Part shown: positions 6,090 to 62,400 of the stretch, one piece after another | How the letters are laid out: each line of letters opens with the position of its first letter | Numbering within the stretch: the stretch's first letter is position 1 | Source of the DNA: Brachionus manjavacas | Taxonomy: Eukaryota; Rotifera; Eurotatoria; Ploima; Brachionidae | NCBI GenBank assembly: GCA_019054805.1 | Contig: JAHQIY010000012.1 | Coordinates: 1,798,001 to 1,862,000 of the forward strand | Length of the DNA stretch: 64,000 nucleotides | Reading direction: 5' to 3' | The notes under the pieces: generated by a model | Database searches by the model: none | Seen by the model: the letters and a program-made list of their open reading frames with translations, nothing else | Told to the model about the DNA's origin: nothing | Program-made: the position numbers and the translations under genes

Positions 6090-6970
6090 GGCACACTAAG
6101 ATAGCTGATTCGATCGATTGCTGCTCATCTAGCAATCAATGTCTGCTTTAAAGCTGTTAACATTGAGGGCTTCAACTAAATGATTTGGCATCGAGTTCCA
6201 TATTTTAGCGTTTATGTTGAAAAAAATATTTTCTCTATGTTGGAGCCTCGAAATTTCTTTGTAATATTTGAAGCAGTGACCTCTTCTTTGGTTTTTTGTG
6301 ACATTAAAATTTTTGCTTTTTCAACCAATTCTATTCCATGCATGAACTTGTATAATTGAATAAGATCACCTCTTTTTCTTCTTACCACCAGTTTTGGAAT
6401 GTTCAAAGCCTTCAATCTGCTTTAATACAGTTTAATTCTATTTGAAGAATTTAAATTCGTAGTTATGCGTTGAATCCTTTCAACATTCTCACAGTCTGAC
6501 TTAAGAATTGGAGACCATACAGGCACAGCAAATTCCAAAAGAGGACGAACAAAAGTTAAATACAATAATCTATATGACTTACAATCAAAACGAGCGAATG
6601 ATTTCCTAATGCGACCCAAAATTTGATTTGCTTTGTTTGTAGCCTCTATCACTTGATTTTTCCTTTTAAGATTTGTAATGGTGATAACTCCAAGATATCT
6701 TTCAGTTTCTGACGTTGATAAGTGTTTACCATTAAAAAATTAAGTGAATATATTGTCTTTATGACCGTAATGCATAACCACTCATTTTGATGTGTTGAAA
6801 TGAAGAAGCCAATCTTGAGTTCACTTGAAAAATTATATCTAAATCTGACTGTAGTTTCACTGCGCTTATTTCTGATACCGTTTGCGAGAATATTTTAGTA
6901 TCATCTGCATACATTTTGACAACATTCTCTATTCCTTTTGGTGGATCATTGATATACAAAACGAACAATA
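6090..6970 (-). pseudogene. CR1/Jockey-like LINE reverse-transcriptase remnant
   Basis: On the minus strand the RT palm is at 6968-6759 (LYINDPPKGIENVVKMYADD), including the catalytic YADD. Next, out of frame, come ERYLGVITITNLKR and NKANQILGRIRKSFARFDCK (6652-6422), then KLVVRRKRGDLIQLYKFMHG (6415-6212) and KIWNSMPNHLVEALNVNSFK, the standard C-terminal sequence of CR1/Jockey-type LINEs. Several stops and frameshifts show it is dead. The 5' two thirds of the element are absent. Confidence 0.9.
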
Positions 6971-18667: not shown

Positions 18668-18867
18668 TAGGACCATACACAAATTACATTTAGATTAAAA
18701 ATCCCATTGAACATAAAATTAATTAGTACCTTTTTATGCGATTTGAAAAATTGGATATTTGATGGACTTAAATTATTTCTTTATTTAAAAAAATGCAGCC
18801 AAATCTTAATAATAATAAAAATTAGAAAAAAATATTCACAACATTAAGATTTTTTGCTAGAGAAATT

Positions 18868-19434
18868 TCATTTTTGATTTTCTTTGACCATTTTACCCAT
18901 TTGTTCCATAGCTTCATAAATACCCTCTCCAGTCAAAGCACAAGCGCTCTGTATGAACCATTTATTTTGATTTTTGGACAGCTTTTCAAGATTCAGTCTT
19001 TGAACCAGTTCGGAGCATGAAATGGCATTGGGAAGATCTTGTTTATTGGCGATAACAACCACAGGCACACCACGCATCGAATCATCTTCTAGAATGCCAT
19101 GAAGTTCTTCGGCAGCCTCATGCACTCGTTCACCATCACTACTATCAATTATAAAAAAAAGACCATCTGTATTTTGGTAATAGTGCTTCCATAATCTTCT
19201 GATTTTTTCTTGACCACCAACGTCCCATACAGTAAAGCTTACTCCTTTACAAGGTGATACTGTTTCCACGTTGAAGCCAATAGTTGGTATCGAGCATATA
19301 TTTTCGTTTAGTTTTACTTTATAAAGAATGGTTGTTTTTCCAGCATTATCTAGGCCTAAAAGCAATATTCTACTGGGGTTACCTTCATTCCAGTTTGAGA
19401 ACAACTCGATCAACTTCGAAAAATAAAGTCCCAT
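18868..19434 (-). CDS. ARF-family small GTPase, copy A
   Basis: This single-exon, 188-residue protein has the whole ARF layout. Gly2 (MGLYFSK) is the myristoylation site, followed by the N-terminal amphipathic helix. The P-loop is GLDNAGKT at 27-34. The switch I threonine is Thr51 in [10 protein letters not shown]. Switch II is [12 protein letters not shown] with Gln75. The base-recognition motifs are NKQD at 130-133 and SAC at 163-165. ARFs recruit coats and lipid enzymes to Golgi and endosomal membranes. The protein is identical, residue for residue, to the copy at 29738-30304 on the opposite strand. The absence of introns may point to an origin by retrocopy. It was duplicated together with its promoter. 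Confidence 0.96.
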
Positions 19435-19818
19435 TTTAGCTTTTGATTTGATGTATTTGTGTTCATTTTTAATCCAACTAAAAAAGGTATTTATAATTAA
19501 TATTAATTTTGATGTGTTCTAAAATACGTGTTTTTGAAAATTATTTTCTCAAACTTAATTTTGAACACGCTGGAAATTTTTACATTCAGAAAAGAAAATT
19601 ATGAATATATTTAAATTTCTTATTTTTACGCAAAATTTCGTCAAGCTAGTCATTTGAACATAATAAGTCATAAATAATTATGAGAAAATTTCTACCTTTG
19701 GTTGCAATTAAAAAAAATACTTTTTATTGAGAAATTAAAATATTCCAAATTATGCTGGCTAAAATCTATTAGATACATCTTTTAAATTTCGATAATTAAT
19801 TAAAAACTTTGAAAACAA

Positions 19819-19842
19819 ATGGGGGTTTCGAATAAAGCCTGA
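19819..19842 (+). pseudogene. Truncated start of the divergent ARF-like partner gene
   Basis: At the place where the right arm has the start of the chimeric ARF-like gene, this arm has ATG and then seven codons reading MGVSNKA before a stop. The partner gene at 29353 begins MGVLNSK. The duplication therefore ends inside the first codons of the partner gene, leaving only its start here. Confidence 0.75.
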
Positions 19843-19869
19843 GGAACAAATTAAAAGAAAAAAAAATTA

Positions 19870-20500
19870 CGTAGTTTTTCGTTCTTCTTTATTATTCAGC
19901 ATTTGGAAATATGTCATACCAGTAGAATCCCCTTTTAATTTCTTCCTAAGTCTTTTTCTATCAGTATTTAAGTCTTACTGATAGTCTCTGCTGATACCAC
20001 TTGGGCTAACAGTTGTTTTCCTAATTACAAAGTCAATCGGAATAAGGGTTAGAGTGGAAGTGAGTACACAGTCTTACTTGACTCTTAAACACACCTCGTA
20101 GAGTTTTATCAAGTTAACTTTTTTCTTTGGAAGACTATAAGATCTTAATATGGTCTACAAGATTTCTCTGTTTATGCTGTCTTTCTTGAAGTTAAAGAAT
20201 TGCACGAACAATGACTTTTTCATTCCAGACTTTGCACCACCTCTGAATTCAGGAAGTCACATACACTGGTTTTAATCTGACATTAATCGGTTAAGTGAAT
20301 TTTTAAAAACCAGCGTAGTAGCTTTATGTTTCAAACATTTTGCTGACATACCAAGTTTCATCTTTACAAATGTGTTTCGCAGTTAGAGTCGTCTTTAATG
20401 ATTATCCAATTATGAATTTGTTTAAGCTTACAGGTGGAATTCACTCAACAAAACAATGTTAGTTGCAAAAAAGAAAAGCAGCGACTTAGCCAAATAGGGA
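19870..20500 (-). pseudogene. Strongly decayed LINE reverse-transcriptase remnant
   Basis: Minus-strand frames contain scattered blocks such as RSYSLPKKKVNLIKLYEVCL, resembling the I..LP.K.INLIK.LYE segment of RT, and GISRDYQ near the expected TGVRQG position. Frameshifts and stops are frequent. The stretch is clearly richer in G/C than its surroundings. The identification is tentative. Confidence 0.4.
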
Positions 20501-20809
20501 CTGAGGGGTGCTCAAGTTCGCCTATCCAAAAAATGAGCCTCTCTTTAAAAAAGTTCTATTTACCAAAAATAGTCATAATTTTTATGTTTCAATAATAAAA
20601 TTTTGATTTTCTTGATATACTTGTTTTTGTATTTTATTACTAATAATTATAAAGTTTTTTAGTAAATTCCACCTAATTAAATTTAATTTTCTGAAAAAAA
20701 ATTTCTACGTCGAATTTCTACCTCTTCACTTCTTCTTCCTCAAAAAATTAAATAAAATTTTTAATAACTTTAATATTAGTTTCTTTTCATTCAAAAGTTA
20801 TCTTTCAAT

Positions 20810-21195
20810 CTTTTAAAATTTTTTGTCATAGTGAATTTTTATTCTAAATTTGTGAAAAAATTTGATTAGGATCTTAAATGAATTTAAAGTTAAAGAAGAA
20901 GACCAACAAAACCTTGTGAATGTCTCTATATGAAATATCTAAATTTAATTTTTTAACAAATACATCAATAGAAGACTTATTTTTTTTACAATTGTTGTAC
21001 TGGAAAAACAATCTTCGCCATGTTAAAAGATTTCTATATTATAGATATATTTGTGAAAAAATTTAAATTTAGGTATTTCATATAGAGACATTGAAAAGGT
21101 TTTTTTGGTCTTCTTCTTTAACTTTAAATTTATTTAAGACCCTAGTCAATTTTTTTCATAAATAAAAATTCAAAAAAACAAAAAAATTTTAAGCC
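20810..21195. mobile_element. Foldback (long inverted repeat) element
   Basis: The left arm at about 20810-20965 and the right arm at about 21045-21195 are imperfect inverse copies of about 150 bases. Shared core segments include TTTAAAGTTAAAGAAGAAGA and ATGTCTCTATATGAAATA on the left, with their complements on the right. The short centre has no ORF. The right arm ends where the target-site-like repeat of the following Mutator-like element begins. Exact ends and a target duplication could not be fixed. Confidence 0.75.
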
Positions 21196-21539
21196 TTTCC
21201 TTATAGGGAATATTATTTCAGCACAATCAATTTCTGATTAAAACAATGAAAAAAACATTAAACACAATTCGATTTCTTCTCAGAACAAAAAATTATATTT
21301 AAAAAAAAACATTTAACACAAAAAAATTGTGTTTGAAAATAATTCTTAAAGGAAATTTTTTTTCAACACAAAATTTTTTCAAATAAAATAAATTTTTTTT
21401 TAATTTTAAATTTTATATAATTATTTTTATAAGTGGAAAATAAGTAAATAAAGTATATTTCGAAGCTTAAATAAAAGAACTTAAAAAAATTAGTCTCTAA
21501 AAAACCATTTTTCCGCATTTTTTGCTCTACCTCTTTTAG

Positions 21540-23051
21540 GTTTATTGACAAATTGGTCCTTTTTTTAAACAGTTCTTTTAAAGCCAATAAATGTGCACAA
21601 TATCCTATTTTAGTGATAAACTTGCACGAACATTTCTTACTGTAAAGGTTAACTTTATAACAGTTCTTGAATAAATAAGTTCATGAATAAATTTTTTTTA
21701 AATTTTTTTTAACAAGCCATTTTTTTACCCAGTTTAATGCAACACTTTGAAGGCTTAGGCACCACGGAAAAAATTTTTGAATCAATTGAATAGTACTTAA
21801 TTATTTCCATGCTTTTAATTAAAAAAGTATGAACGCTCAATTTTCTCCTGTAAGTAAAGTCACGCTTTATGTTGCATTGAAAGATTCGATAGTTAGTACA
21901 AACATATCCAGGGGGAGAAGAGTAAGCCTTCCATGCTGTCCAAAGAGATTTTTCTTAAATAAAAACTTAAATTAATACTTATTTTTTTTAAATAAACAAT
22001 TATAGTCTTACTAGAAGCCCACGAATTAAAGAAATATCTGATAAATTCAGGACAATCATTATATAAAGCACTTACAAATTGCTTATAAAATTTTTTAAAA
22101 TGATCCGACGAAGTTGTCATATGAAGTCTATGAAAAAATTTTTTAAACATTGGTTTCAATAAATCATTGGGAATATCTAATTTGTTTTTTTTACAATTAA
22201 GCACCACATGAAAATAGCACATCAATATGTTAACTGAAGAAAAATCTTCTTTAGCAGCATTATATGATGCCAACCAAGCGTCCTGAACAATATTCTCTGG
22301 CTCAAAAATTATATCCAAGCTATTTGCAATCTCTTTTAGTCCATTATAAAAGTGTAAATAATCAACTTCTTTCTCATGACTGCTCATGAATACAGAAAGC
22401 TATAGGATGAAATTTTTGTTCCATATCTGTCTTACCAAAAACAATTAATACAAATTTATTTTTTATCAATTTGTATGTGCCATCAATATGAAAAGCGCCT
22501 GGTACACTACTGTCTAAATTAGTCAACAATTTTAATGAAGTAATACATATATTTAGGTGATTATCATCAGATCCATCACCCAAAATGAAACAAAATTTTT
22601 ATAGTTAATTGAATTTGTTCTAGTATTTGTGCCTGTTTTAGAATTTGTTTCACTACTAGAATCTAAAAAATTATCAGAGTCGATGTTTTTAGTCGCAGTT
22701 GTTTTTGAAGAATTAGTCTTAATCGAATAAGACATTTCTAACATTGATTCAGATTTATTTTTGATAGAGTTTTTAGGACTTGAGTTAGTGCTTGAGGTTT
22801 TGTGACTGGAACTAGGGCTAAAGGATTTGTGACTGGAATTAGTGCATGAGTTGTCGAAACTGAGATTTTGACTAGATATTTTTGGACTGGGATTTGGACT
22901 AACATCTTTTTTTTTTGATTTTTTGTTGTTGATGGCAAAGGGTCAGCATCCTCTAATGAGTTGTCAGCAACCTTTGCGATCTTCTTATTACCCCTTTTTT
23001 TTGGTTTATCCTGGGTTAAGTAAACAATTTGTTTATTATTTCTTAAATTCA
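21540..23051 (-). pseudogene. MULE transposase with SWIM zinc finger, frameshifted
   Basis: The minus strand runs from MNLRNNKQIVYLTQDKPKKR near 23051 through a Ser/Thr-rich linker. The DDE core starts with FHIDGTYKLIKNKFVLIVFG (22583-22374). It continues SHEKEVDYLHFYNGLKEIA through NILMCYFHVVLNCKK (22387-21893). After what looks like an intron, the chain goes on as SLWTAWKAYSSPPGYVCTNY and FNATIKRDFTYRRKLS-like sequence, then stops. The C-terminal CSCKFITKIGYCAHLLAL is a SWIM finger (C-x-C...C-x-H). Frameshifts occur near 22850, 22570 and 22375, and a stop lies near 21720, so the copy is probably inactive. MULE transposases cut and paste DNA through a DDE nuclease. Confidence 0.85.
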
Positions 23052-23206
23052 TTTCTAAATAAAAACACCTTATTTTCAATTAGAAAAAAAATTGAAATTA
23101 ATTAATTAATTTCCCTCCATTTAGAGAATATATTCATTCAACTTTTTTTCAAAAATTTGGAAGCTCATTAAAAAGCATTTTTGTGTTTACTGTTTTTTTC
23201 AAAATT

Positions 23207-23341
23207 ATTTTCTGTGTTGAACGCATTTATTTTATTTATAAATTTTGTGTTAAAAGTATTTTTTCAAATTTTAATTTTTGTGCTGAACGCATTTATTCTT
23301 TTTTTAATTTTTGTGCTAAAAGTATTTTTTTCAAATTTTAA
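23207..23341. repeat. Tandem repeat of about 67 bases at the MULE end
   Basis: Two adjacent copies share TTTTGTGNTGAACGCATTTAT and a following GTGTTAAAAGT / GTGCTAAAAGT stretch. They form part of the subterminal region of the MULE and could be transposase binding sites. Confidence 0.65.
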
Positions 23342-23437
23342 CTTTTTTGTTGAGAAGAAATCATTTTGTGCTGAGCGTTTTGAAATTGTGTTGAACGGTT
23401 ATTTTTTTGTGTTGAAAAGGTAGACCCTTTCCTTATA

Positions 23438-24365
23438 TTCGATTTACTTTAGAAGACTAGTGTAGAGGTGTAATAACCATTTAACAAAATCCAAAAAAAA
23501 AGCATAAATATTCTTTGAAATCAAATTCAGATAGAAGAAATCTGATTTTCTTTTCAGATTCCTCAGGATCGATTATCGATTAAAGGCAATTTTATATTGT
23601 GGAAAAAAAATGGAAAAAGGCAACAAAATCAGGGTGTATTGTTGAAGAGTAAAAAAAGCTGTTTTTTCGTTTTTTAATGTCAAAATCATAACTACATTAT
23701 TTAATTTATAAAAACTACATTTTCTAGTAGGTATTTTTATTCCCTATTCAAAAATATAATCAGCTTTGGAGTGTTTCTGGAAAGTTATGAGGGTGTTTTG
23801 TGTTGTTTTTTTTTTAATTCGAAATTTAAAGGTGATGAATAATTTTTTTAGATGAAAATGTGTGTACAGTAAAATTCAGATAATTAGGAATAAATGAATC
23901 AAAAAAAATTTGAACTTTTGTTAATATTTTGGCGATTTCCACCCGGTGTTTTTTTTTTCAATCTTGATGGGTGTATGTTTTAGACATAACCTCGTCTTGA
24001 CAAGACACTAAAATTTCAAATTTTTTTATTAAATTGAATCAAATTCAAGAAGGTTTAATTTGTAAATTTTAATTTAAAAAAACTCATAAAAATCTTGACT
24101 CATTTTGCTTTCATTCCATTTGAAAAATTGATCAAGATTTGGTCAAGCAACTTTAAAGATCAAAAATGTTCTTTATCAATTTACATTCAATTTATTTAAT
24201 AATTTAAATAATTAGCAACAAAAAAAAATCACAAAAAAATGAACAATACGGAAAATTAAAATAGATTTTGGAAAAAATTGTCCAAAATTTGTCCAAAATT
24301 AAGTTTTTATCAAGCAAAAAAAAAAAAAGTTCGTACAAAAAAATTCCAAAAATTATAGTCAAGCT
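23438..24365. other. Spacer, no gene seen
   Basis: AT-rich sequence between the MULE and the stop codon of the zinc-finger coiled-coil gene. It should contain the 3' end of that gene. No element end was recognised. Confidence 0.4.
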
Positions 24366-25358
24366 TTAACTATCAGCAAGCTTTAAGTACTGCATGACGG
24401 CCGAGTAATCAACAGCATCGCCAATCTCATCAGTCTGGTCCAATGCTGCATCGTTAACAAAAAAACTGCTATTTCCACTGCTGCTGGCAGTTTTTACAGC
24501 CAAATCTGACTCCGAGGCTTTTTTATCATCCGACAATTTTTTTACTACAGAGATGGTAGTTGTTGGCGACCTGGTCAAATACTGCTTTATCATATGCTTT
24601 TGAACGTGGTTCTCCAGCAAAACATGCTCGCTCTTGTCATACAGCTTGAGACAAAACATGCAGCATATTTTTGTCTCGTCACATTTTCTCACGTGACTAT
24701 CAAATTTTTTGCTAGTTATTTTACATGACTCTATGGATGTTAGACAAATTGGACACGTGTACAAGTCGTCTTGGTTGACAACTAGGTTTTCGCCGAGACC
24801 ACTGGTGCTGGAGCTGGCAATGGTCGTGTTGCTCGAGGCGACAGAAATGCACGGCGATGAGCAAGTGTCATTTTTTTGGCCACTTTTTCCCAATAAATTT
24901 TCAATTTGCTTTTTTTGCTCTTTTAACTTGACTTTAATTGACACGCTTCGGCTCTTGAAGTCACCAAGTTCATTAGCCAAATCGGCCAGACGAGTTTCGC
25001 TCTCTGTTTTGTCCAACTTTTGCACCAGGCTGTCTATCCTGGCGAATAGTTTAGTGCCGTAGCGAGCCTCAAAGTCTGGTATAAACGAGCACTGGTAGAA
25101 AATTTTCAACTGATCGCTGAGTGTGCTGATGATTTGCGCTGCCGATGGACCAGTTTGTGCGAGCAAATTTTCCAAATTGTTGGTGAAATTTCGCACCGAA
25201 TTTTCTTGTTCTTGCTTTAGATCGTCGATTAGCTTCTGTGTTTTTAGCCGATGAGTGTCCAGAGCTGTTTTGTCGCTGCTCAAGCTGTGTATCTTTCTTA
25301 ATAGGACTTGGTAGGCGTTCTCGTACTCGGCACACTTGGCACAATTTTGAGATGTCAT
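24366..25358 (-). CDS. Coiled-coil protein with paired UBZ1-like zinc fingers
   Basis: A single open frame of 330 residues starts MTSQNCAKCAEYENAYQVLL. Residues about 10-65 and 105-160 are heptad-rich, charged and predicted to form coiled coils. A Ser-rich linker follows. Two zinc fingers are then visible: C202-x2-C205...H222-x3-C226 and C233-x2-C236-x14-H251-x3-H255. The second, CMFCLKLYDKSEHVLLENHV, resembles the UBZ1 ubiquitin-binding fingers at the C-terminus of TAX1BP1/CALCOCO proteins, which act in selective autophagy. The tail is acidic. G/C content is well above the surrounding sequence, which supports a real gene. The functional link is inference from the finger pattern and the order of coiled coil then fingers. 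No SKICH domain is visible. Confidence 0.75.
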   Translation of the reverse strand: MTSQNCAKCAEYENAYQVLLRKIHSLSSDKTALDTHRLKTQKLIDDLKQEQENSVRNFTNNLENLLAQTGPSAAQIISTLSDQLKIFYQCSFIPDFEARYGTKLFARIDSLVQKLDKTESETRLADLANELGDFKSRSVSIKVKLKEQKKQIENLLGKSGQKNDTCSSPCISVASSNTTIASSSTSGLGENLVVNQDDLYTCPICLTSIESCKITSKKFDSHVRKCDETKICCMFCLKLYDKSEHVLLENHVQKHMIKQYLTRSPTTTISVVKKLSDDKKASESDLAVKTASSSGNSSFFVNDAALDQTDEIGDAVDYSAVMQYLKLADS

Positions 25359-26860
25359 TCTCGGTCAAAAATCTAAAATCTAAGCAAGTCTTTAGAAATC
25401 AACATGAAGCTATAGAGCTTTGCACAGAGAATTGAATTAGCTAGTCTAGAGAATGGCTTGTAACGTTTAAATACTATTAATCCAGCACTCTATACGAGAT
25501 TTAAATCATCTTTTATTTTAATTTTTCAGATTTAATTTTATGATGCAAAGTTTGCTTTTTGGGACCGGTGACAAGCCGAGACTTGAGCTTTTTTAAGAAA
25601 GGGAGAGCATTTTTTCAATTTATTCAATTTTATTCAAAATTTTAGAGTTTTAATTTTTTTTTTTGAATTTTTTTGTTGCTGGCAAAAGTTTATTTATCTT
25701 CAGGGACCTAAGTCGAAATCATAGATTAAATCTAATAATTATAGACAAAGTGTCATCATTAGATAAATTGGCAGAAGTGATTTATTTTTGGGTACTGTTC
25801 AGTATAGCGTATATTATTTTTGATAAATTATCATTTTTTTAAATCAGAAAAAAATGTCATCATCAGTACCCGTTTAGGAATTTAACTCGAATCAGCTATT
25901 TTAAAAAGTTAATCATGGACTAGTCTCAGGTGAAACACGGATATAGTAAACATCACATCGAGTTAATTCAAATATCATTAATTGAACTAAATTTAAAATT
26001 AGAAAAAATGCTTTTAAATTTTTATTTTTTCTAATGCTTAAATGCTTGTTTCGATGTCTGCAGTGGTTTCATTTTTTGAGCATATAGAAATTATTTTTTT
26101 TTCAGTTTAAATATTAAAAAATCAGTTTTTGAATTTTAGATTGACTTTAAAATTGTCTTATTAAATTTTTTAGATTTATAAAAAATGTCTAGGTGAAGTT
26201 TGAAGCAAAAACTTTAGCAAAATGTATTTTATCAAGTCCGGACTTTAAAATTTAATTTTTTTTTAAATTTTCTAGATCAGGCCTCATATCAAAAAATTTA
26301 TATACTCTTGGGTTGTCTAATGCAAAAGATTTGCCAAATATCAGAATTTTCTCGGACTTGTGAAAAAAAGTCCGGACATGGACTTGACTTGAAAGTTGTC
26401 ACTGTTAAACAATTCTAATATTTACGTAAAATTACCGATTTTCAAAAATGCCAATAAGTCGCTAGATTTTGGCTCTTTTGGCTTTTTCCGTTCAGAATTT
26501 GATTTTCCAATTTTTTTGATTAATTTTTCCACATAAGATAAATTTAACTGGTTTTGCAGGAAATTTAATTTCATTGAGTCTTTAACTTTTCTAAAAGAAA
26601 TTAATATTTTTTTAAAACAACGATGAATTCAGATTTCAAGTATGTAAAATGACTGGGTATTTATTAAAATTTGTCTCCAACAAATATGTCACCGTATTTA
26701 AACAGCAACAGGGTAATGACTCAAAACACAATTTAGAGATTTGTAACAAATTTCTTGAAAAAATTGTATTAAATGGTTATAAAAATCTTTTTATTAATTA
26801 AGTGTTTTTTTTTAATTTTTAAAATTTACCTAGTAAAAATCTCCACCAAAATCACCAGAT
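25359..26860. other. Upstream spacer with a dispersed repeat
   Basis: No gene seen. A segment at about 26235-26400 contains CAAGTCCGGACTTTAAAATT and AAGTCCGGACATGGACTTGA, motifs that recur at about 50610-50670. This indicates copies of an unclassified dispersed element. Confidence 0.45.
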
Positions 26861-26869
26861 CTAAATTAA

Positions 26870-27531
26870 ATAGAAATGGTTTGGAACGAATTAAAGTATT
26901 ACACTAAACTTGACATCCCTTCACGATCGCCGTGCACGAAGTGACATGATCCAACAGTTCAAGCTCATAAACGGCATCAACGAAGTAAGCTAGGTGAACC
27001 CCCATGTCCTCAGCAGCTCACTCTCCCAAATCGGGCCCGCCAGAGGAATCAGAGGGCATACGAGGAGACTATCCGGCCAAGCCACAACCAAATGTTCGCA
27101 TAGGGCTAACTCCTTTACGAACAGGATTATCAATCAATGGAATACCCTGCCTTCTGCGGTCACAATCGCTGACTCAGTCAATCAATTCAAGAATCGCTAC
27201 GATGCTTTTAAAGCCAGCCACCAAGTTTTTACCACATGATAATTTTATTTATATTTCTTTTTAATTTCTTTATTATATACCCCTCTCAGTTTCTTCTAAT
27301 TTTTTGACTTTTTATTTTGTGTATTGTATTGTATATCAAAGTTACCAATTATGTCTATTAGATTCCAAAATCTTATGATAAGATTTTGGAATAAGTATAT
27401 ATTTCTTACAGAAATAAGTATTTATTTCTGTAATTTTCCTTTTATTGCGTAGTGTGCTACCATAGGCGATCTCCTAGTAGACCACCTCCGCAAACTTGCT
27501 TGCAGTAGCTTATTATTATTATTATTATTAT
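26870..27531 (+). pseudogene. LINE 3' end with (TTA)n tail
   Basis: The plus frame reads LHDRRARSDMIQQFKLINGI near 26915, then after a stop at 26990 NPHVLSSSLSQIGPARGIRG and NSFTNRIINQWNTLPSAVTI (27239). This is the end of a CR1-type ORF2: R.SF..R..NWN.LP..V..A.S...FK. A 3' UTR follows and ends in seven TTA repeats at 27510-27531. The UTR motif CTCCTAGTAGACCACCTCCG is repeated in complement at about 56000, marking the same family. The rest of the element is absent, as usual for 5'-truncated insertions. Confidence 0.88.
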
Positions 27532-28767
27532 TCATAAAACAAAATATTAAAACTAAAGAAGTGCAGTAAAAACAATATTTGAATTTCAAGGAACTCCTTG
27601 GAAATGTCAAGCCAAAATTAACCATTTAGAAAATGTTAAAAAAAATGAGGCTAAAATATATTAAAAAGGCAATGAAGGTTGTTATACAGAGAAATGGATC
27701 TTGGTCAAACTGTTGATTAATTTTTTAAAATAAAACTAATAAATAAATTTAATATATTAGACTTTACGAAACTTAGCATTTTTTTTCCCTATTTAAAGAT
27801 TTTTTACATCAAAAAAAATAAATTTAAACGTAATTTTACGTAATATTACAAAATTTATCTTTTGTGGAATAATTAAAAAAAAAATTGGAAAAACCAATTT
27901 TGAAAGGAAAACTCCAAAGAGAGGCAAAATCTTGCGATTTTTTGTGCATTTTTGAAATTCGGTAATTTTACGTAAGTCAACGTTATTTGGACTTTTTTTA
28001 ATGACTTTGGCTTTAATCTGAAATGAATTTCACGTTGTAACAAAAATAATAAGTTTTACTTGCAACAGTATTAGAAGCATTTAAGTATTTGAACAATACA
28101 AAAAAATAAAAAAACCTTAGAGCAGTTTTACTAAAATAATAAATTTATTACATAAGATCAGCTAAATTAGAATTTATAACATAAGGTCCCTAGATCGTCT
28201 TGATTACTTAACAGAAGACCAGTTTTATCTTGCCCATTTGGATCTTTCTTCGAATGTATACACTCTCCAAAAAAATCGATCAGTATTTTTTTTTTGAGAG
28301 CAGAAAAGTAAAATTTAATAGTTTAATACAATATTTTCAAAGTGATTTTATGGTGTGCGCTTAATTGTTAGATTTAAAATTTTTTTATTACAAAATATAA
28401 AAAAATCGCTTTTTTATCATCAAATGCTTTTATTTATAAAATTTAGATGAATTTATTTTTTAAATTTTTACTTTTATTTTGATAAATGGAAAACTTTTTA
28501 ATTTTACTTCTAATTATTTTTCTTTTAATGGAAATAAATATTTTTAATTTATATTTAAAATAATATTAAATTGTAGTTTGAAAAATTCATAAATTTTAAA
28601 AATTTATTAGTTCATTACTTTTAGGAAATCTAAGAATAAAAAATTATGTGTTGTGAGTTATGTAACTACAGCAATAAATATTTAAAGCTAATTTTGTGAT
28701 TTTAATGATGTTCAATAAAAATTAACCAAATATTATTAAAATTTTAATTACTATTTACAGGATAAAA
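27532..28767. other. Spacer, no gene seen
   Basis: A/T-rich sequence. Short ACGTAATTTTACGTAA blocks at 27826-27846 and near 27966 resemble a palindromic motif that recurs elsewhere in the window. No ORF is supported. Confidence 0.4.
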
Positions 28768-28795
28768 TAAATAAAGATTTTTTGCTTGAAAAATT

Positions 28796-29353
28796 TCATT
28801 TTTGATTTTCTTTGACCATTTTACCCATTTGTTCCATAGCTTCATAAATACCCTCTCCAGTCAAAGCACAAGCGCTCTGTATGAACCATTTATTTTGATT
28901 TTTGGACAGCTTTTCAAGATTCAGTCTTTGAACCAGTTCGGAGCATGAAATGGCATTGGGAAGATCTTGTTTATTGGCGATAACAACCACAGGCACACCA
29001 CGCATCGAATCATCTTCTACAATGCCATGAAGTTCTTGCGCTGCCTCGTTTAATCTAAACTCATCCGTACTGTCTACTACAAAAAAGCATCCATTACTTT
29101 CCTGAAAATACTCTTTCCATGTCGGTTTTACCTTTTTATAATTTCCTAAATCGCATACTCGCATGGAGACTCCATTTGCAGTAATAAAAGTTTCTGAATT
29201 AAATCCAATTGCTGGAATTATAAATATATTATGTTTATCTCTCATGGCGAAAAAAATTGTTGTCTTTCCACTATGGTTCAAACCCAAGATTAAAATTTGT
29301 GCGGTCATTTTTCTTTTATCACCACTACCAAATTTTGAGTTCAAAACACCCAT
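28796..29353 (-). CDS. Chimeric ARF-like GTPase with altered switch motifs
   Basis: A single open frame of 185 residues. Residues 108-185 are identical to the ARF copies apart from one substitution. The first 107 residues are strongly diverged. Gly2 (MGVLNSK) and the P-loop GLNHSGKTT at 24-32 are kept, as are NKQD 127-130 and SAC 160-162. Switch I reads IPAIGFNSET, with Ala48 in place of the Mg-coordinating Thr. The G3 block reads DLGNYKKVK instead of DVGGQEKIR, losing the second Gly and the catalytic Gln. GTP hydrolysis should therefore be impaired, if it binds nucleotide normally at all. The gene is divergent from ARF copy B, with 384 bp between the two starts. The sharp boundary between diverged and identical halves points to gene conversion. 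It may be functional as a binding-only GTPase or be drifting. Confidence 0.88.
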   Translation of the reverse strand: MGVLNSKFGSGDKRKMTAQILILGLNHSGKTTIFFAMRDKHNIFIIPAIGFNSETFITANGVSMRVCDLGNYKKVKPTWKEYFQESNGCFFVVDSTDEFRLNEAAQELHGIVEDDSMRGVPVVVIANKQDLPNAISCSELVQRLNLEKLSKNQNKWFIQSACALTGEGIYEAMEQMGKMVKENQK

Positions 29354-29737
29354 TTGTTTTCAAAGTTTTTAATTAATTATCGAAATTTAAAAGATGTATC
29401 TAATAGATTTTAGCCAGCATAATTTGGAATATTTTAATTTCTCAATAAAAAGTATTTTTTTTAATTGCAACCAAAGGTAGAAATTTTCTCATAATTATTT
29501 ATGACTTATTATGTTCAAATGACTAGCTTGACGAAATTTTGCGTAAAAATAAGAAATTTAAATATATTCATAATTTTCTTTTCTGAATGTAAAAATTTCC
29601 AGCGTGTTCAAAATTAAGTTTGAGAAAATAATTTTCAAAAACACGTATTTTAGAACACATCAAAATTAATATTAATTATAAATACCTTTTTTAGTTGGAT
29701 TAAAAATGAACACAAATACATCAAATCAAAAGCTAAA
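29354..29737. promoter_or_regulatory. Divergent promoter shared by the two ARF genes
   Basis: The 384 bases between the chimeric ARF start (minus) and ARF copy B (plus) must contain both promoters. The same 384-base length and sequence lie upstream of ARF copy A at 19435-19818. No TATA box or initiator can be assigned with confidence in such A/T-rich DNA. Confidence 0.6.
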
Positions 29738-30304
29738 ATGGGACTTTATTTTTCGAAGTTGATCGAGTTGTTCTCAAACTGGAATGAAGGTAACCCCAGT
29801 AGAATATTGCTTTTAGGCCTAGATAATGCTGGAAAAACAACCATTCTTTATAAAGTAAAACTAAACGAAAATATATGCTCGATACCAACTATTGGCTTCA
29901 ACGTGGAAACAGTATCACCTTGTAAAGGAGTAAGCTTTACTGTATGGGACGTTGGTGGTCAAGAAAAAATCAGAAGATTATGGAAGCACTATTACCAAAA
30001 TACAGATGGTCTTTTTTTTATAATTGATAGTAGTGATGGTGAACGAGTGCATGAGGCTGCCGAAGAACTTCATGGCATTCTAGAAGATGATTCGATGCGT
30101 GGTGTGCCTGTGGTTGTTATCGCCAATAAACAAGATCTTCCCAATGCCATTTCATGCTCCGAACTGGTTCAAAGACTGAATCTTGAAAAGCTGTCCAAAA
30201 ATCAAAATAAATGGTTCATACAGAGCGCTTGTGCTTTGACTGGAGAGGGTATTTATGAAGCTATGGAACAAATGGGTAAAATGGTCAAAGAAAATCAAAA
30301 ATGA
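29738..30304 (+). CDS. ARF-family small GTPase, copy B
   Basis: The protein of 188 residues is identical to the one encoded on the minus strand at 18868-19434. All five G motifs and the N-terminal myristoylation glycine are in place: GLDNAGKT at 27-34, Thr51, DVGGQ at 71-75, NKQD at 130-133 and SAC at 163-165. It is intronless and starts at the only suitable ATG, which follows AAGCTAAA. Its divergent neighbour is the chimeric ARF-like gene. Possible polyadenylation signals (CACAAATAAAA) follow near 30370. Because copy A and copy B are identical while their 3' flanks differ, they are probably kept alike by gene conversion, or else the flank was replaced in one of them. Confidence 0.96.
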
Positions 30305-30536
30305 AATTTCTCTAGCAAAAAATTTTAATGTTGTGAATATTTTTTTCAGATTATTATTTTTAATATTAAACACAAATAAAAAAAATATTAAAAGATTTGG
30401 CCTGCTTTTTTATTTAAATAATATTTCAGTGAAAAGTCGAGTCATCTTCCATCAAATATCCAATTTTTTTTATTGCCAAAAAAGGGACTAATTAATTTTA
30501 GGATCAATGGGAAATTTCTGTATGGTCAACAAATAG

Positions 30537-30680
30537 TAATCAGATTAATTAGTAAAATTCTTTTTTGTTTCATTTTAATTTTATTTAATTTTTTCGTAAA
30601 ATTCTGTAACAGAAAGTTATTCTTTAAAAACACAAGAAGACTCAATTTATATTTAATCATTAAGACCCGAGAATTCTTAA
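30537..30680 (+). repeat. Dispersed repeat copy with intact (empty) MITE target site
   Basis: The stretch starting AGTAATCAGATTAATTAGTA is a diverged direct copy of 33395-33406 joined to 33719-33870, ending at the shared ATTAAGACCCGAGAA motif. Here ATCAGATT occurs once, uninterrupted. Confidence 0.75.
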
Positions 30681-30834
30681 AAACTTATTAATATCTTTAG
30701 TGGTATTTTCAACTATTTTTATGGGATTTTAAACTAAATTTGTGACACCTGTTTACATAGTTGAAGCCTCATGAAAAAAAGAAGAAATAGTAAGGTAGCA
30801 ATTACAGAATAGAGTTGGGTAATTTTCTTTCTAT

Positions 30835-30990
30835 AAATTTTTTTTTTAGCTTTTTTACTTTATTTTTATTTTTTTTTCCTAATTTATCATCTCTATTTTT
30901 ATTTTTTTATTTTTTTTTTATATTTTTATAAATTATTCTGATGGAGCTCTAGCTCGGTAAGAAAACAAATATACTAATAAATAATAATGA
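30835..30990 (+). mobile_element. Solo LINE 3' tail
   Basis: A T-rich run leads into ATTCTGATGGAGCTCTAGCT, then CGGTAAGAAAACAAAT and an A/T simple tail. The same sequence follows reverse-transcriptase remains at 47885-47945 and 62510-62610, so this is a 5'-truncated copy consisting only of the 3' UTR. Confidence 0.75.
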
Positions 30991-31565
30991 AATACTAGTA
31001 ACCTTTTTTTCTACAGTAATTTATACAAACTTTGCATCGACTAGAGCAAGTTCTATAAGTAAATAAAATAAAATAAGTGATTTCAATTATTGGAGATTGA
31101 AACGGTTTCAATCTTCTAGAATTCACATAATAATTTTTTCTTTTTTGATATTTATTTTTGAAAATTGATTATAAAATGATAATGGTTAAATAAATGTTTT
31201 TTCTTTCCAACTGAAAGGTTCAAAAAGCCGTCAGCCTAACCATAATCAAATGATTTAGAAAAATTTTATCATCAAACTTAGAACCTTTTTTTTATAACTG
31301 CAATTAAAAAAATTAAATTTAATAAAATTTTATCTATTTGAAAATTACAGTTTTATTTTAGGCTTCTGTCTTTAAATTCAAGTCAAATAATTTTTTTTTG
31401 AATTATCAATTCAAGTTAATAAGCTTTATTTGACTTTTAAACAACACTACATTAAATTAATACAAAAAAAACATTATAAATTTCAAAAATTAAATCAAAA
31501 TTCACAAATGTTAGACTTTTAAAATATTGTCCAAGTGACTCATTTAGGAAAATTAGTTGATAACT

Positions 31566-47884: not shown

Positions 47885-48320
47885 AAAAAATTATTATTTA
47901 TTTATTTATTTGTTTTCTTACCGAGCTAGGGCTCCTTCAGAATAAATTTAAAAAAAAATCAAAATCAAAAATAAAATTAAAGTTAATAAAATGAGATAAA
48001 AAAAAATCAAAATAAAGTAAATTTGTTTTGTTTCTTTTGGGGATGTCATTAATATAAATACTAAATAAAAGAGGAATAATTACTGAGCCTTGAAGAACAC
48101 CTGCAGTTATTTGATATTCGTCTCTCAAGTGGTCATTCACATTTACCTTAAATGTCCTACTTTCTAAAAAGGATCTAATCCAGTTAGTCAAGTAATGAAG
48201 TGAATTCATTTTTATCAATTTAAAAAGTTAACCTTCATGCCAAACTCTATCAAAGGCTTTAGAAATATCAAATAAAATATTTTGTTTTTTTTCATTTTAA
48301 TTTTTAATTGTCTCCATAAA
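47885..48320 (-). pseudogene. LINE copy with internal deletion joining RT to the 3' tail
   Basis: On the minus strand, ILFDISKAFDRVWHEG (about 48275) leads to LHYLTNWIRSFLESRTFKVN, then AGVLQGSVIIPLLFSIYIND and IPKRNKTN. The frame then jumps directly into the T-rich 3' tail with CTGAAGGAGCCCTAGCTCGG and (AAAT)n. The palm FADD and the whole thumb are missing. IPKRNKTN and the tail are shared with the LINE at 59.0-62.6 kb, so the two belong to one family. Confidence 0.88.
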
Positions 48321-54983: not shown

Positions 54984-55354
54984 GAAATCCAGGCATTGTG
55001 AATTTTCATACAAAAATTACAATACAAAAAGTAAAAGAGGTTATAACTTTTGTTCTAACGGTTCAAAACATGTTCTGCAAATGTAACAAAGTGTAACAAC
55101 TTTTGTTACACCTTTTGTGAAAGTTTGCTAAATGTGTGCAAATTTATGCAAAATTTCACTCCATTGAAACGTATTGGAACGAAATGCGGAATTAATTCGC
55201 AGAGTTTTTGCAGACTTTCACAATAGGTGTAACAAAAGTTGTTACACTTTGTTACATTTGCAGAACATGTTTTGAACCGTTAGAACAAAAGTTATAACCT
55301 CTTTTACTTTTTGTATTGTAATTTTTGTATGAAAATTCACAATGCCGAAATCCA
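54984..55354. mobile_element. Foldback MITE with 140-bp inverted arms and 8-bp target duplication
   Basis: The element 54992-55346 (355 bp) begins GGCATTGTGAATTTTCATAC and ends with the exact inverse. The arms, about 54992-55131 and 55207-55346, differ at very few positions. Both sides carry GAAATCCA (54984-54991 and 55347-55354). There is no ORF. The 8-bp duplication suggests mobilisation by a hAT-type transposase, although the GGCATTGTG ends differ from the CAG ends of the other two MITEs. Confidence 0.92.
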
Positions 55355-55420: not shown

Positions 55421-55997
55421 TTAGGCATGTTTAAATATTTGATAGATCAGGAAAAAAAATGTTTGGTAGCAATTACACAATGAAATTGGATGTTCTATAT
55501 ATCTTGATTCGAAACCTTCTCTATATTCTTCCACCAGTCTGTCGACCAGAGGAGCAGAATGACTCAATCCTGCCCTCACATATCTCTCACTCAACTCAAA
55601 ATATGGATTTGAAACTGTTAGGAATTTAAGTTTACTGAAGGCCTCTTGATGCATAATATTGGAGGAGTCATCATGTCTCAGCTTCAAAATAGATCGAACT
55701 GCTTAATTTTGAATAACTTGTAATTTTTTGATGTTAGTTTCTGAGAATCAATTTAAACAAGGAATAGAATAATCCAAGAATGATCCTTTGAGAGATGGAT
55801 TTGAAGAGATTAACTAATGTTTTTGGTTTAAGACCCCATTTTCTGTTTGAGAGATATTTTATTAAGTTAAGTCTTGAATTAAGGCGCTCTTTTAATTCAT
55901 CCACCATTGGAATAAATCTAAGTTTTGAGTCCATTGTGATGCCTAAGAATTTTACTTTTTCCTCATTATAATAATAAGAATAAGCTTCAGCAAGCAA
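55421..55997 (-). pseudogene. LINE ORF2 C-terminal remnant, same family as 59-62.6 kb
   Basis: The minus strand reads VKFLGITMDSKLRFIPMVDE and LKPKTLVNLFKSISQRIILG (55997-55734). After a shift come FSKLKFLTVSNPYFELSERY and VRAGLSHSAPLVDRLVEEYR, then EGFESRYIEHPISLCN (55687-55421). FELSERYV..GL.HS.PLV.RLVEEYREGF recurs at 62285-62380, which links the two copies. The copy is broken by stops. Confidence 0.88.
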
Positions 55998-60339: not shown

Positions 60340-61165
60340 AACAGGTTAGAAATTACACACTGGAATTGCCTTAACTTACCCAGTAGGGTTCATCTCTTAG
60401 GTAATTATTTAGCTCAAAAATGTCCCGACATTGTTTTCCTCAATGAATTAAAGATAGATTTGAGTGAGGCAAATATATCTTGTTTTTATGAATTATCAGT
60501 TTGTAGCAAAACCACGCAACAAGTATGGAGGACAAAATTACCGACTTCAATGTCTTAAATAGTCAAGACATGACTTGTGACCATTTCCCAATGGAAGCAT
60601 CAATTTCTATGGGCTATCAATTAAAAAATAAATCTACAGCAAAAAAACTTAACTCTAAGAAGGCAAACCAGCAATTCTTTAGTGAGATTTTAAATTCTCA
60701 AATAGCTAATATCTCTGAAAGTCACCTAGCTATTGATCAACAAAATGATAAAATTACAGAAAAAATCATTTATGCATCACATAAATGCATTCCTTACCTT
60801 TCTCAGAAAATCTACAAATTCTTAAATCAAAAGTGATTTGATTTTACTTTAGAAATTATGATCAGTCTAATTTTAATGATCCAATTTGCTTAAATAAATT
60901 AATTATAGCTGTAAAAAGATTGAAAAATAAAGCGGCATCTGGACCTGACCAAATTCATAATTTGATGCTAAAAAATATACCAAGAAATTCATTAATAGAA
61001 ATCTTAGAACTTTTTAATTTATCTCTTAGAGAAGGTAAAGTCCCGAAAGCGTGGAAAACTTTGAACATTACAATTATTCAAAATAAGGCCTCTTCTGTAC
61101 AAAACCCTTTTTATAGAAAGATTTTTCATTTATTTAAACAAGATTTTTCAAGATATTTTTTTTAA
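60340..61165 (+). pseudogene. LINE endonuclease and RT N-terminal segments
   Basis: EITHWNCLNLPSRVHLLGNY and CPDIVFLNELKIDLSEA (60345-60480) are the start of an AP-type endonuclease (WN....PDIV.LNE). MTCDHFPMEASI near 60570 is its SDH-type end with Cys for Ser. NKAASGPDQIHNLMLKNIPR (60926 on) and EILELFNLSLREGKVPKAWK are the start of RT. Most of the endonuclease is deleted. Confidence 0.85.
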
Positions 61166-61169
61166 TCCC

Positions 61170-62400
61170 ATCTTCACTCTCTAAAATATATTTGTTGACT
61201 TTAAAGTTCTGATTGATGATGATACATTGAGTGATCATTTTTCCATCTCAGTTGAACTTTTGATTACAGTCAATTCCCCGAATTTCTATTTTAATTTAAA
61301 AAATCAAATTGGGATCTCTACCAAGAATTAGGACTTAGGTCTTCAAGGCATCATAATAGTTATACGGAAAATATGACGAGCTAAATGAACGCATCTCAAA
61401 ATATATCATTAATGTTGCTCAAAAAAACATACCCTTGCACTCAAGAATGTTTTCTAAATCTACCTTACCAAAATATATTGTAAAATTAATTACTTACAAA
61501 TTTTTCCAACAGTGACTCTATTTGAATTAAGTCATCTCTTTAACATGAGTTTGGAACAGGGACAAGTGCCAAGATCCTGGAAAATAGCAACTATAACTAT
61601 GATCCCTGAGAAATCTTCTCCTACTCAAGACCCTAATAACAATCGTCCAATTAGAATGACAAGTTGTCTTGGAAAATTACTTGAACGTATTATTTACTCA
61701 AGAATATATAATTTTCTCGAGAACAATAATTTACTAATTAAAGAGCAATCAGCATTTAGAAAACATAGACGCACTGCATATAATATTTATTTTCTTATTC
61801 AAAAAGTTGTAGAGTCTTGATATATTTTAACATAAAGCTTTTGATAGAGTTTGGCACGATGGACTAATTTACAAGATAATTAAAATCAATTTACCTCCTT
61901 ATTTTATTTGTTGGATAAGAACATTTCTGCATTTTAGATCTTTTACAGTAAATATAAATGGTCATCTAAGTGGTCAATACCCTATTAAAGCAGGAGTCCC
62001 ACAAGGGTCAGTAAATAGTCCACTTCTTTTCAGCATTTTTATAAATGACATACCAAAAAGAAACAAGACAAACTTCCAGTACTCTCTTCTTTTTGCAGAT
62101 GATTTGGCTACTTTTTTTTATTTTCAAATGTCATGTTACATGATTTTTGAGAAAAAAACAAAAGCTAGAACCAATCTTTAATAATCAAGATATTTTTTAA
62201 TGTTATGATAATTCTCAGTTGAACCGAGCAGAATCCAAATTATTATCTTTTAGAGATTCCTCGTTATTTAAGCTGTTACCATCGACTTTTTGAGTTGAGT
62301 GAGAGATATGTCATGTCAGGATTGGGCCATTCTGTTCCACTGGTCTTCAGACTGGTGGAAGAATATAGAGAAGGTTTCCAATCAAGATAATATCGAATAT
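61170..62400 (+). pseudogene. LINE second EN end and RT core
   Basis: FVDFKVLIDDDTLSDHFSIS (about 61195) is another copy of the endonuclease end. LFNMSLEQGQVPRSWKIATI and RPIRMTSCLGKLLERIIYSR (61512-61820) are RT fingers. KAFDRVWHDGLIYKIIKINL, AGVPQGSVNSPLLFSIFIND and the palm YSLLFADDLATFF (about 62095) follow. The catalytic FADD is kept. After a deletion the chain picks up near the C-terminus at LFELSERYVMSGLGHSVPLV and LVEEYREGFQSRYIEYPTQF (62285-62410). Confidence 0.88.

Follow-up and report, generated by a model that had tools for sequence, protein, structure and literature searches.

Probable interlocus gene conversion among three linked ARF-type genes of the rotifer Brachionus manjavacas

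Introduction

A 64,000-nucleotide stretch of the genome of the rotifer Brachionus manjavacas (assembly GCA_019054805.1, contig JAHQIY010000012.1, positions 1,798,001 to 1,862,000), hereafter called the window, contains two ARF genes, A and B, which lie in inverted orientation about 10 kb apart. The two genes and their upstream regions are identical while their downstream flanks have diverged, which raises the question of how a gene and its putative promoter can be the same in two places when the sequence beside them is not. The answer proposed here involves a third gene, C, which stands head-to-head with B and was overlooked in the initial annotation. Very probably, the three genes form an old linked cluster of intronless ARF-type genes in which interlocus gene conversion equalised A and B over gene and promoter and placed the 3′ part of A or B into C. 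The genome falls within the Brachionus plicatilis complex, as primers published for the mate-recognition genes of that complex (PMC3495898) match it: the mmr-a7 primer perfectly at 4 places, and the mmr-b primer perfectly at 1 place and with one mismatch at 2, whereas the reversed words gave 0 matches for both. The window has a G+C content of 26.5%, and the genome searches reported below covered 114.17 Mb in 61 contigs.

Results

A near-identical tract between diverged flanks

As the initial annotation had stated, the 188-codon open reading frames (ORFs) of A and B show no difference. B scores 209.8 bits against the Pfam Arf model, for which the curated cut-off is 22.3. Both proteins carry GLDNAGKTT, the switch I sequence IPTIGFN, the switch II sequence WDVGGQ, NKQD and an N-terminal MG, all of which we take to be motifs of the ARF family and which were placed by alignment with the solved ARF1 3aq4. 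A and B are thus, judged by sequence, ARF family GTPases.

The identity extends beyond the genes into a tract of 999 bp with a single mismatch, at 30324 (T in B, C in the sense of A). The 3′ edge of the tract lies 43 bp beyond the stop codon and the 5′ edge lies 5 bp into the reading frame of C, such that the spacer between C and B and the ATG of C are both included. The spacer and its copy upstream of A do not differ (0/384), again as annotated, and a 398-bp query covering the spacer matched the genome at A and B only. Beside the spacer copy, arm A retains a remnant of the start of C; in a search for more of C on this arm nothing rose above shuffled sequence (110/500 shuffles scored as high).

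The downstream flanks had been described as alignable and heavily diverged, with indels, a description borne out by two comparisons, a forced global alignment and a best local alignment, which give a divergence of 14–31% depending on the aligner. The global alignment, which runs to 135 columns and contains 3 gap events, has an identity of 0.69; 52 control stretches from the window averaged 0.494 and reached 0.594 at most. In the best local alignment, which consists of 7 blocks, the flanks agree at 109 of 127 aligned bases (0.858), and its score of 108 is above that of all 500 shuffles (maximum 73). When the flank query was 653 bp long, 3 of 178 window controls scored above 108 (118, 153 and 166), all of them through 30822–30997, which is not part of the A/B flank; once the query was shortened to 30348–30538 the highest of the 178 controls was 47, compared with 108 for the A flank. 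A 65-bp core of the flank (30448–30512) has, beside B itself, the A flank as its sole match in the genome, and there it is found in the correct order, orientation and position next to the A/B block. Aligned base by base, the arms do not diverge uniformly: 1 of 999 bases differs in the tract, compared with 42 of 135 in the flank under global alignment (Fisher p ~1e-40) or 18 of 127 under local alignment (Fisher p 5e-17).

Gene C is a mosaic

The product of C scores 160.5 bits against Pfam Arf, also above the cut-off. The final 73 codons and the stop codon of C are those of A and B, base for base, and over 28774–29037 C and A are separated by 3 mismatches. Across the whole codon alignment C and A differ at 153 of 555 bases, yet the longest run free of differences is 221 bases, a length reached in 0 of 10000 permutations (largest run 42). 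The contrast between the two halves is also seen in comparisons with D, a fourth intronless copy, which the same contig carries at a distance of 1.2 Mb. In the N-terminal half, C is 46% identical in amino acids to A and 46% to D, with A and D at 86%; in the C-terminal half the values are 99% for C and A, 77% for C and D and 78% for A and D. Trees of the two halves, from which B (identical to A) and the locus L015 (no ORF extracted) were omitted, had weak supports of 46–84 and were used solely in combination with these identity values. The synonymous distance (dS) between A and C is 0.04 over codons 107–188 (NG86) and is not estimable for the N-terminal half.

The direction of overwriting would be from A or B into C, because C as donor predicts a C-terminal identity between A and D near 46%, the level of C and D in the N-terminal half, yet it is 78%.

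Table 1 Coordinates of the features of the ARF cluster within the window.
Feature	Position	Strand	Description
ARF gene A	18868-19434	minus	intronless, 188 codons; ORF; identical to B, which matches Pfam Arf
ARF gene B	29738-30304	plus	intronless, 188 codons; Pfam Arf 2.6e-62
ARF gene C	28796-29353	minus	intronless, 185 codons; Pfam Arf 3.6e-47; mosaic
Near-identical tract, A side	18825-19823	minus	1 mismatch/999 bp against B side
Near-identical tract, B side	29349-30347	plus	1 mismatch/999 bp
Spacer between divergent genes C and B	29354-29737		384 bp; putative bidirectional promoter
Spacer copy upstream of A	19435-19818		384 bp; identical to C/B spacer
Remnant of C start on A arm	19819-19842	plus	7 codons including ATG, then stop: MGVSNKA-stop; C begins MGVLNSK
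Stretch of C identical to A and B	28791-29019	minus	229 bp; putative converted tract; base-by-base comparison
A 3′ flank	18671-18824	minus	homologous to B flank, diverged
B 3′ flank	30348-30527	plus	homologous to A flank, diverged

Gene conversion and the alternatives to it

Conversion is favoured because near-zero differences at silent and intergenic sites stand beside diverged homologous flanks and because the mosaic in C is free of indels and in frame. Both the A/B and the A/C comparisons give a sharp-edged, near-identical tract inside diverged homologous sequence, and silent or neutral sites are homogenised, in the spacer in the first case and at the synonymous sites of the shared half in the second. 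The mosaic C supports conversion independently of A and B. The initial annotation had proposed an old inverted duplication with gene conversion over gene and promoter, and this remains the best reading, now backed by C. Its picture of a palindromic pair with two arms is too simple, as the unit is a cluster of three genes, the 5′ edge of identity falls at the start of C and a pair of ARF1 genes in direct orientation, described below, has the same pattern.

For the order of events we infer the following. An old head-to-head pair, C and B, would have had a common 384-bp spacer. B would then have been duplicated in inverted orientation, along with its 3′ flank, the spacer and the beginning of C or more, to give arm A at a distance of about 10 kb; on this arm the copy of C would later have been lost apart from about 20 bp. 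The flanks that escaped conversion would have drifted apart to 14–31%, with indels, until a recent conversion equalised A and B from the start codon of C to 43 bp past the stop. A separate recent conversion would have put the last 73 codons of A or B, or slightly more, into C, the first part of which remained an old divergent ARF. One event per tract suffices, and repeated conversion need not be invoked. The average heterozygosity reported for hsp82 in the Brachionus plicatilis complex is 0.0016 (PMC3495898); the difference between A and B, 0.001, does not exceed it and the last event would therefore be very recent.

Four other explanations were weighed. The one that survives best concerns C alone, which could be an illegitimate fusion of a piece of A or B with an old ARF fragment. 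This would suit the 3′ flank of C, whose homology to the flanks of A or B is not convincing (52/500 and 456/500 shuffles score as high). In C, however, the two parts meet at the homologous codon, within a motif common to both genes, with the frame kept and no indel, and a fusion is unlikely.

Less probable still is that A arose through one recent duplication of some 1 kb, comprising B and its promoter, with the similarity of the flanks due to an unrelated older repeat. The 999-bp block is indeed nearly perfect and sharply edged, and its divergence, being below the hsp82 heterozygosity reported in the same source (PMC3495898), would make the copying very recent. An unrelated repeat is nevertheless hard to reconcile with a flank core that occurs at A and B alone, correctly ordered, oriented and placed, or with flank alignments that exceed every control by identity (global) and by score (local, shortened query), and the mosaic C demands a second, conversion-like event in any case.

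An assembly artefact, in which collapse or polishing made the arms identical, is very improbable. Short reads struggle with identical arms 10 kb apart. The window, however, is without N and lies inside a 3.36-Mb contig, and the flanks of the arms differ. One base differs within the block as well, and at this site C has the base of A; the block common to the three genes, moreover, has other edges than the A/B block. The idea that strong purifying selection held gene and promoter alike, with no conversion, can practically be dismissed, for all that the ARF protein is conserved and a spacer segment of about 55 bp is similar to the region upstream of D (80%, blastn match): such selection would not keep the spacer free of differences while sparing D, whose likeness to the spacer is weak overall (15/500 shuffles as high), and it fails alone because D, with 81% amino-acid but 75% nucleotide identity to A (534 bp) and a synonymous distance too large for an estimate, differs strongly from A at silent sites.

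Several points weigh against conversion in the cluster as set out here. As the original C-terminal half of C is no longer visible, how similar it was to A and B when it was converted has to be assumed. The flank that can be aligned is short, at 127–135 aligned bases. The evidence comes from a single genome assembly. The argument from linkage rests on very few pairs: in the survey described below, no comparable pair (at least 120 bp and at least 85% identity) was found in the 50-kb sample of C1, and 50 kb of C2, in which gene content was not assessed, gave only repeat blocks, so that the survey offers no grounds for calling the process common.

Other ARF copies and homogenised pairs

D is not homogenised with the cluster. 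Its 3′ flank shows no convincing homology to the flanks of B and C (32/500 and 136/500 shuffles as high). A 12-base word, CGTGTTCAAAAT, is found upstream of A (19558–19569), B (29603–29614), D (L007:1371) and the ARF1 gene L014 (L014:1412). It occurs at 28 places in the genome, compared with 24 for the reversed word, which is chance level; 4 of the 28 are upstream of ARF genes, and a longer form of the word matched A and B only.

The survey for homogenised pairs covered 50 kb of C1, 50 kb of C2 and a 19-kb stretch of C13, a small sample in which the C13 stretch is non-random, having been picked for its ARF1 pair. This stretch yielded two pairs. The ARF1 genes L010 and L011 (G000:C13:2103919-2104284 and 2117371-2117715) bear introns and are in direct orientation, with their matches 13.45 kb apart. 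Beyond codon 21 their identity is 0.994 for exon 1 and 0.985 for exon 2 to near its end, and the intron stands at 0.964; codons 1–21 are at 0.794 and the flanks are at 0.51–0.53, the level of unrelated sequence. The second is a divergent inverted pair at L047:46-499 and 1313-1766, which we assume to be OPRT-like; its Pfam phosphoribosyltransferase match is under the curated cut-off (19.1 compared with 26.3 bits). The two copies have 3 mismatches in 454 bp (99.3%) across an intron, and at the edges identity falls to 0.46 in the 5′ flank and to 0.52 on the other side, the latter over just 46 comparable bases. The outer flanks of both pairs are unalignable and a recent partial duplication is therefore harder to exclude for them than for A and B.

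ARF/SAR1-type relatives about 43 kb apart (L018 and L020) are 74–76% identical in two pieces. The contrast of these and of the distant D with the closer L010 and L011 counts in favour of conversion between linked copies. The repeat blocks of C2 (L054-L058, G000:C2:4035720-4050000) are arrayed in tandem, lie in both orientations and recur about every 101 bp; a direct repeat in the same region, 3.7 kb long, has 99.7% identity.

With regard to layout, A and B are inverted, C and B head-to-head and A and C direct, and L010 and L011 are direct yet homogenised. A reading based on palindromes only was not adopted given the direct order of A and C and the direct ARF1 pair. As the latter has the same patchwork, there is no demonstration that homogenisation requires, or is caused by, an inverted layout. 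The pattern is compatible with conversion between near neighbours whatever their orientation, the pairs being too few for a rule.

Other features of the window

Between the arms, at 21363–22399, a Cys/His-rich piece accompanies a fragment with similarity to a MULE transposase (match below the Pfam cut-off), and an inverted repeat (20836–21175) is close by. A foldback at 54992–55346 has 172-nucleotide arms that are 92% complementary and 11 nucleotides apart; it adjoins the first arm of a separate inverted pair, 55500–55608 and 62281–62389. Three fragments in the ORF list (6422–6739, 47937–48227 and 60842–62181) may be reverse-transcriptase-like, of the non-long-terminal-repeat type.

Discussion

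Possible function of gene C

C retains GLNHSGKTT, NKQD and the N-terminal MG, and departs from intact switches in switch I (IPAIGFN for IPTIGFN) and in G3 (CDLGNY for WDVGGQ). The diverged half is free of stops; when the first 318 bases of A were evolved neutrally in simulation to 56% identity, 1 of 2000 sequences was stop-free and the mean was 7.4 stops. Over codons 20–105, C and A have a nonsynonymous distance (dN) of 0.50 and a synonymous distance beyond estimation. These figures and the absence of stops suggest that selection has probably acted on C through most of its existence. The altered residues, which we take from ARF1 to be the Mg-binding threonine and the region of the catalytic glutamine, lead to the prediction that C would hydrolyse GTP poorly or not at all.

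A tentative extension, which we hold to be possible but rather less probable than its converse, is that C, with its altered switch region, encodes a functional ARF-like protein to which conversion from the neighbours supplies the guanine-recognising C-terminal part; the “switch” and “body” halves would evolve at different rates and the promoter shared by C and B would be homogenised with A as a unit. A and B together would likely provide a double dose of one normal-looking ARF, and C an ARF-like protein that has an altered switch region and keeps the guanine-recognition part of A and B.

The locus would constitute a compact and well-delimited record of conversion in a facultatively sexual animal, with two genes and a promoter equalised, a third gene partly overwritten and, elsewhere on the contig, an outgroup copy that escaped conversion. 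Should related species bear this out, the locus, together with the ARF1 and OPRT-like pairs, would allow the length of conversion tracts and the effect of distance on conversion to be measured in monogonont rotifers, and would show how conversion can build chimeric GTPases.

Comparison with known systems

The process is already known, and the ARF trio is a clear further example of it. In Drosophila, Hsp70Aa/Hsp70Ab and Ba/Bb are reported as mirror-image linked pairs kept alike through ectopic gene conversion (PMC3924832); those are heat-shock genes, whereas the rotifer cluster consists of ARF GTPases with a third, half-converted gene. The same source reports the palindromic pair Amy-p/Amy-d, with homogenised coding sequence and independent flanks, and Amy3/Amy4 of D. 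kikkawai, with homogeneous noncoding sequence through conversion or duplication (PMC3924832). In the Amy-p/Amy-d case, as far as that account describes it, the pattern is limited to coding sequence, while that of A and B also spans the 384-bp spacer to the next start codon.

Inverted pairs of Caenorhabditis (F44E5.4/F44E5.5 and the HSP16 locus) are reported to be more alike, with their intergenic arms, within than between species, and to have parts of genes identical while the remainder has diverged (PMC1803023). They are backed by three species in that report, whereas the ARF cluster, with its arms 9.5 kb apart, is backed by one genome. In Tigriopus, conversion between GOT1p1 and GOT1p2 is described as giving mosaics of diverged and similar regions with new protein combinations (PMC3728101), in a different family and with population data. 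Within the same species complex as the rotifer studied here, the mmr-b mate recognition genes of Brachionus show concerted evolution of copies (PMC3495898); these are tandem internal repeats, for which the portion of the report available describes no inverted layout, whereas A and B are inverted. Set beside these systems, what is less usual in the ARF cluster is that one ARF is half overwritten and degenerate in G3 and that the promoter has been retained, within a three-gene anatomy that is unusually clear.

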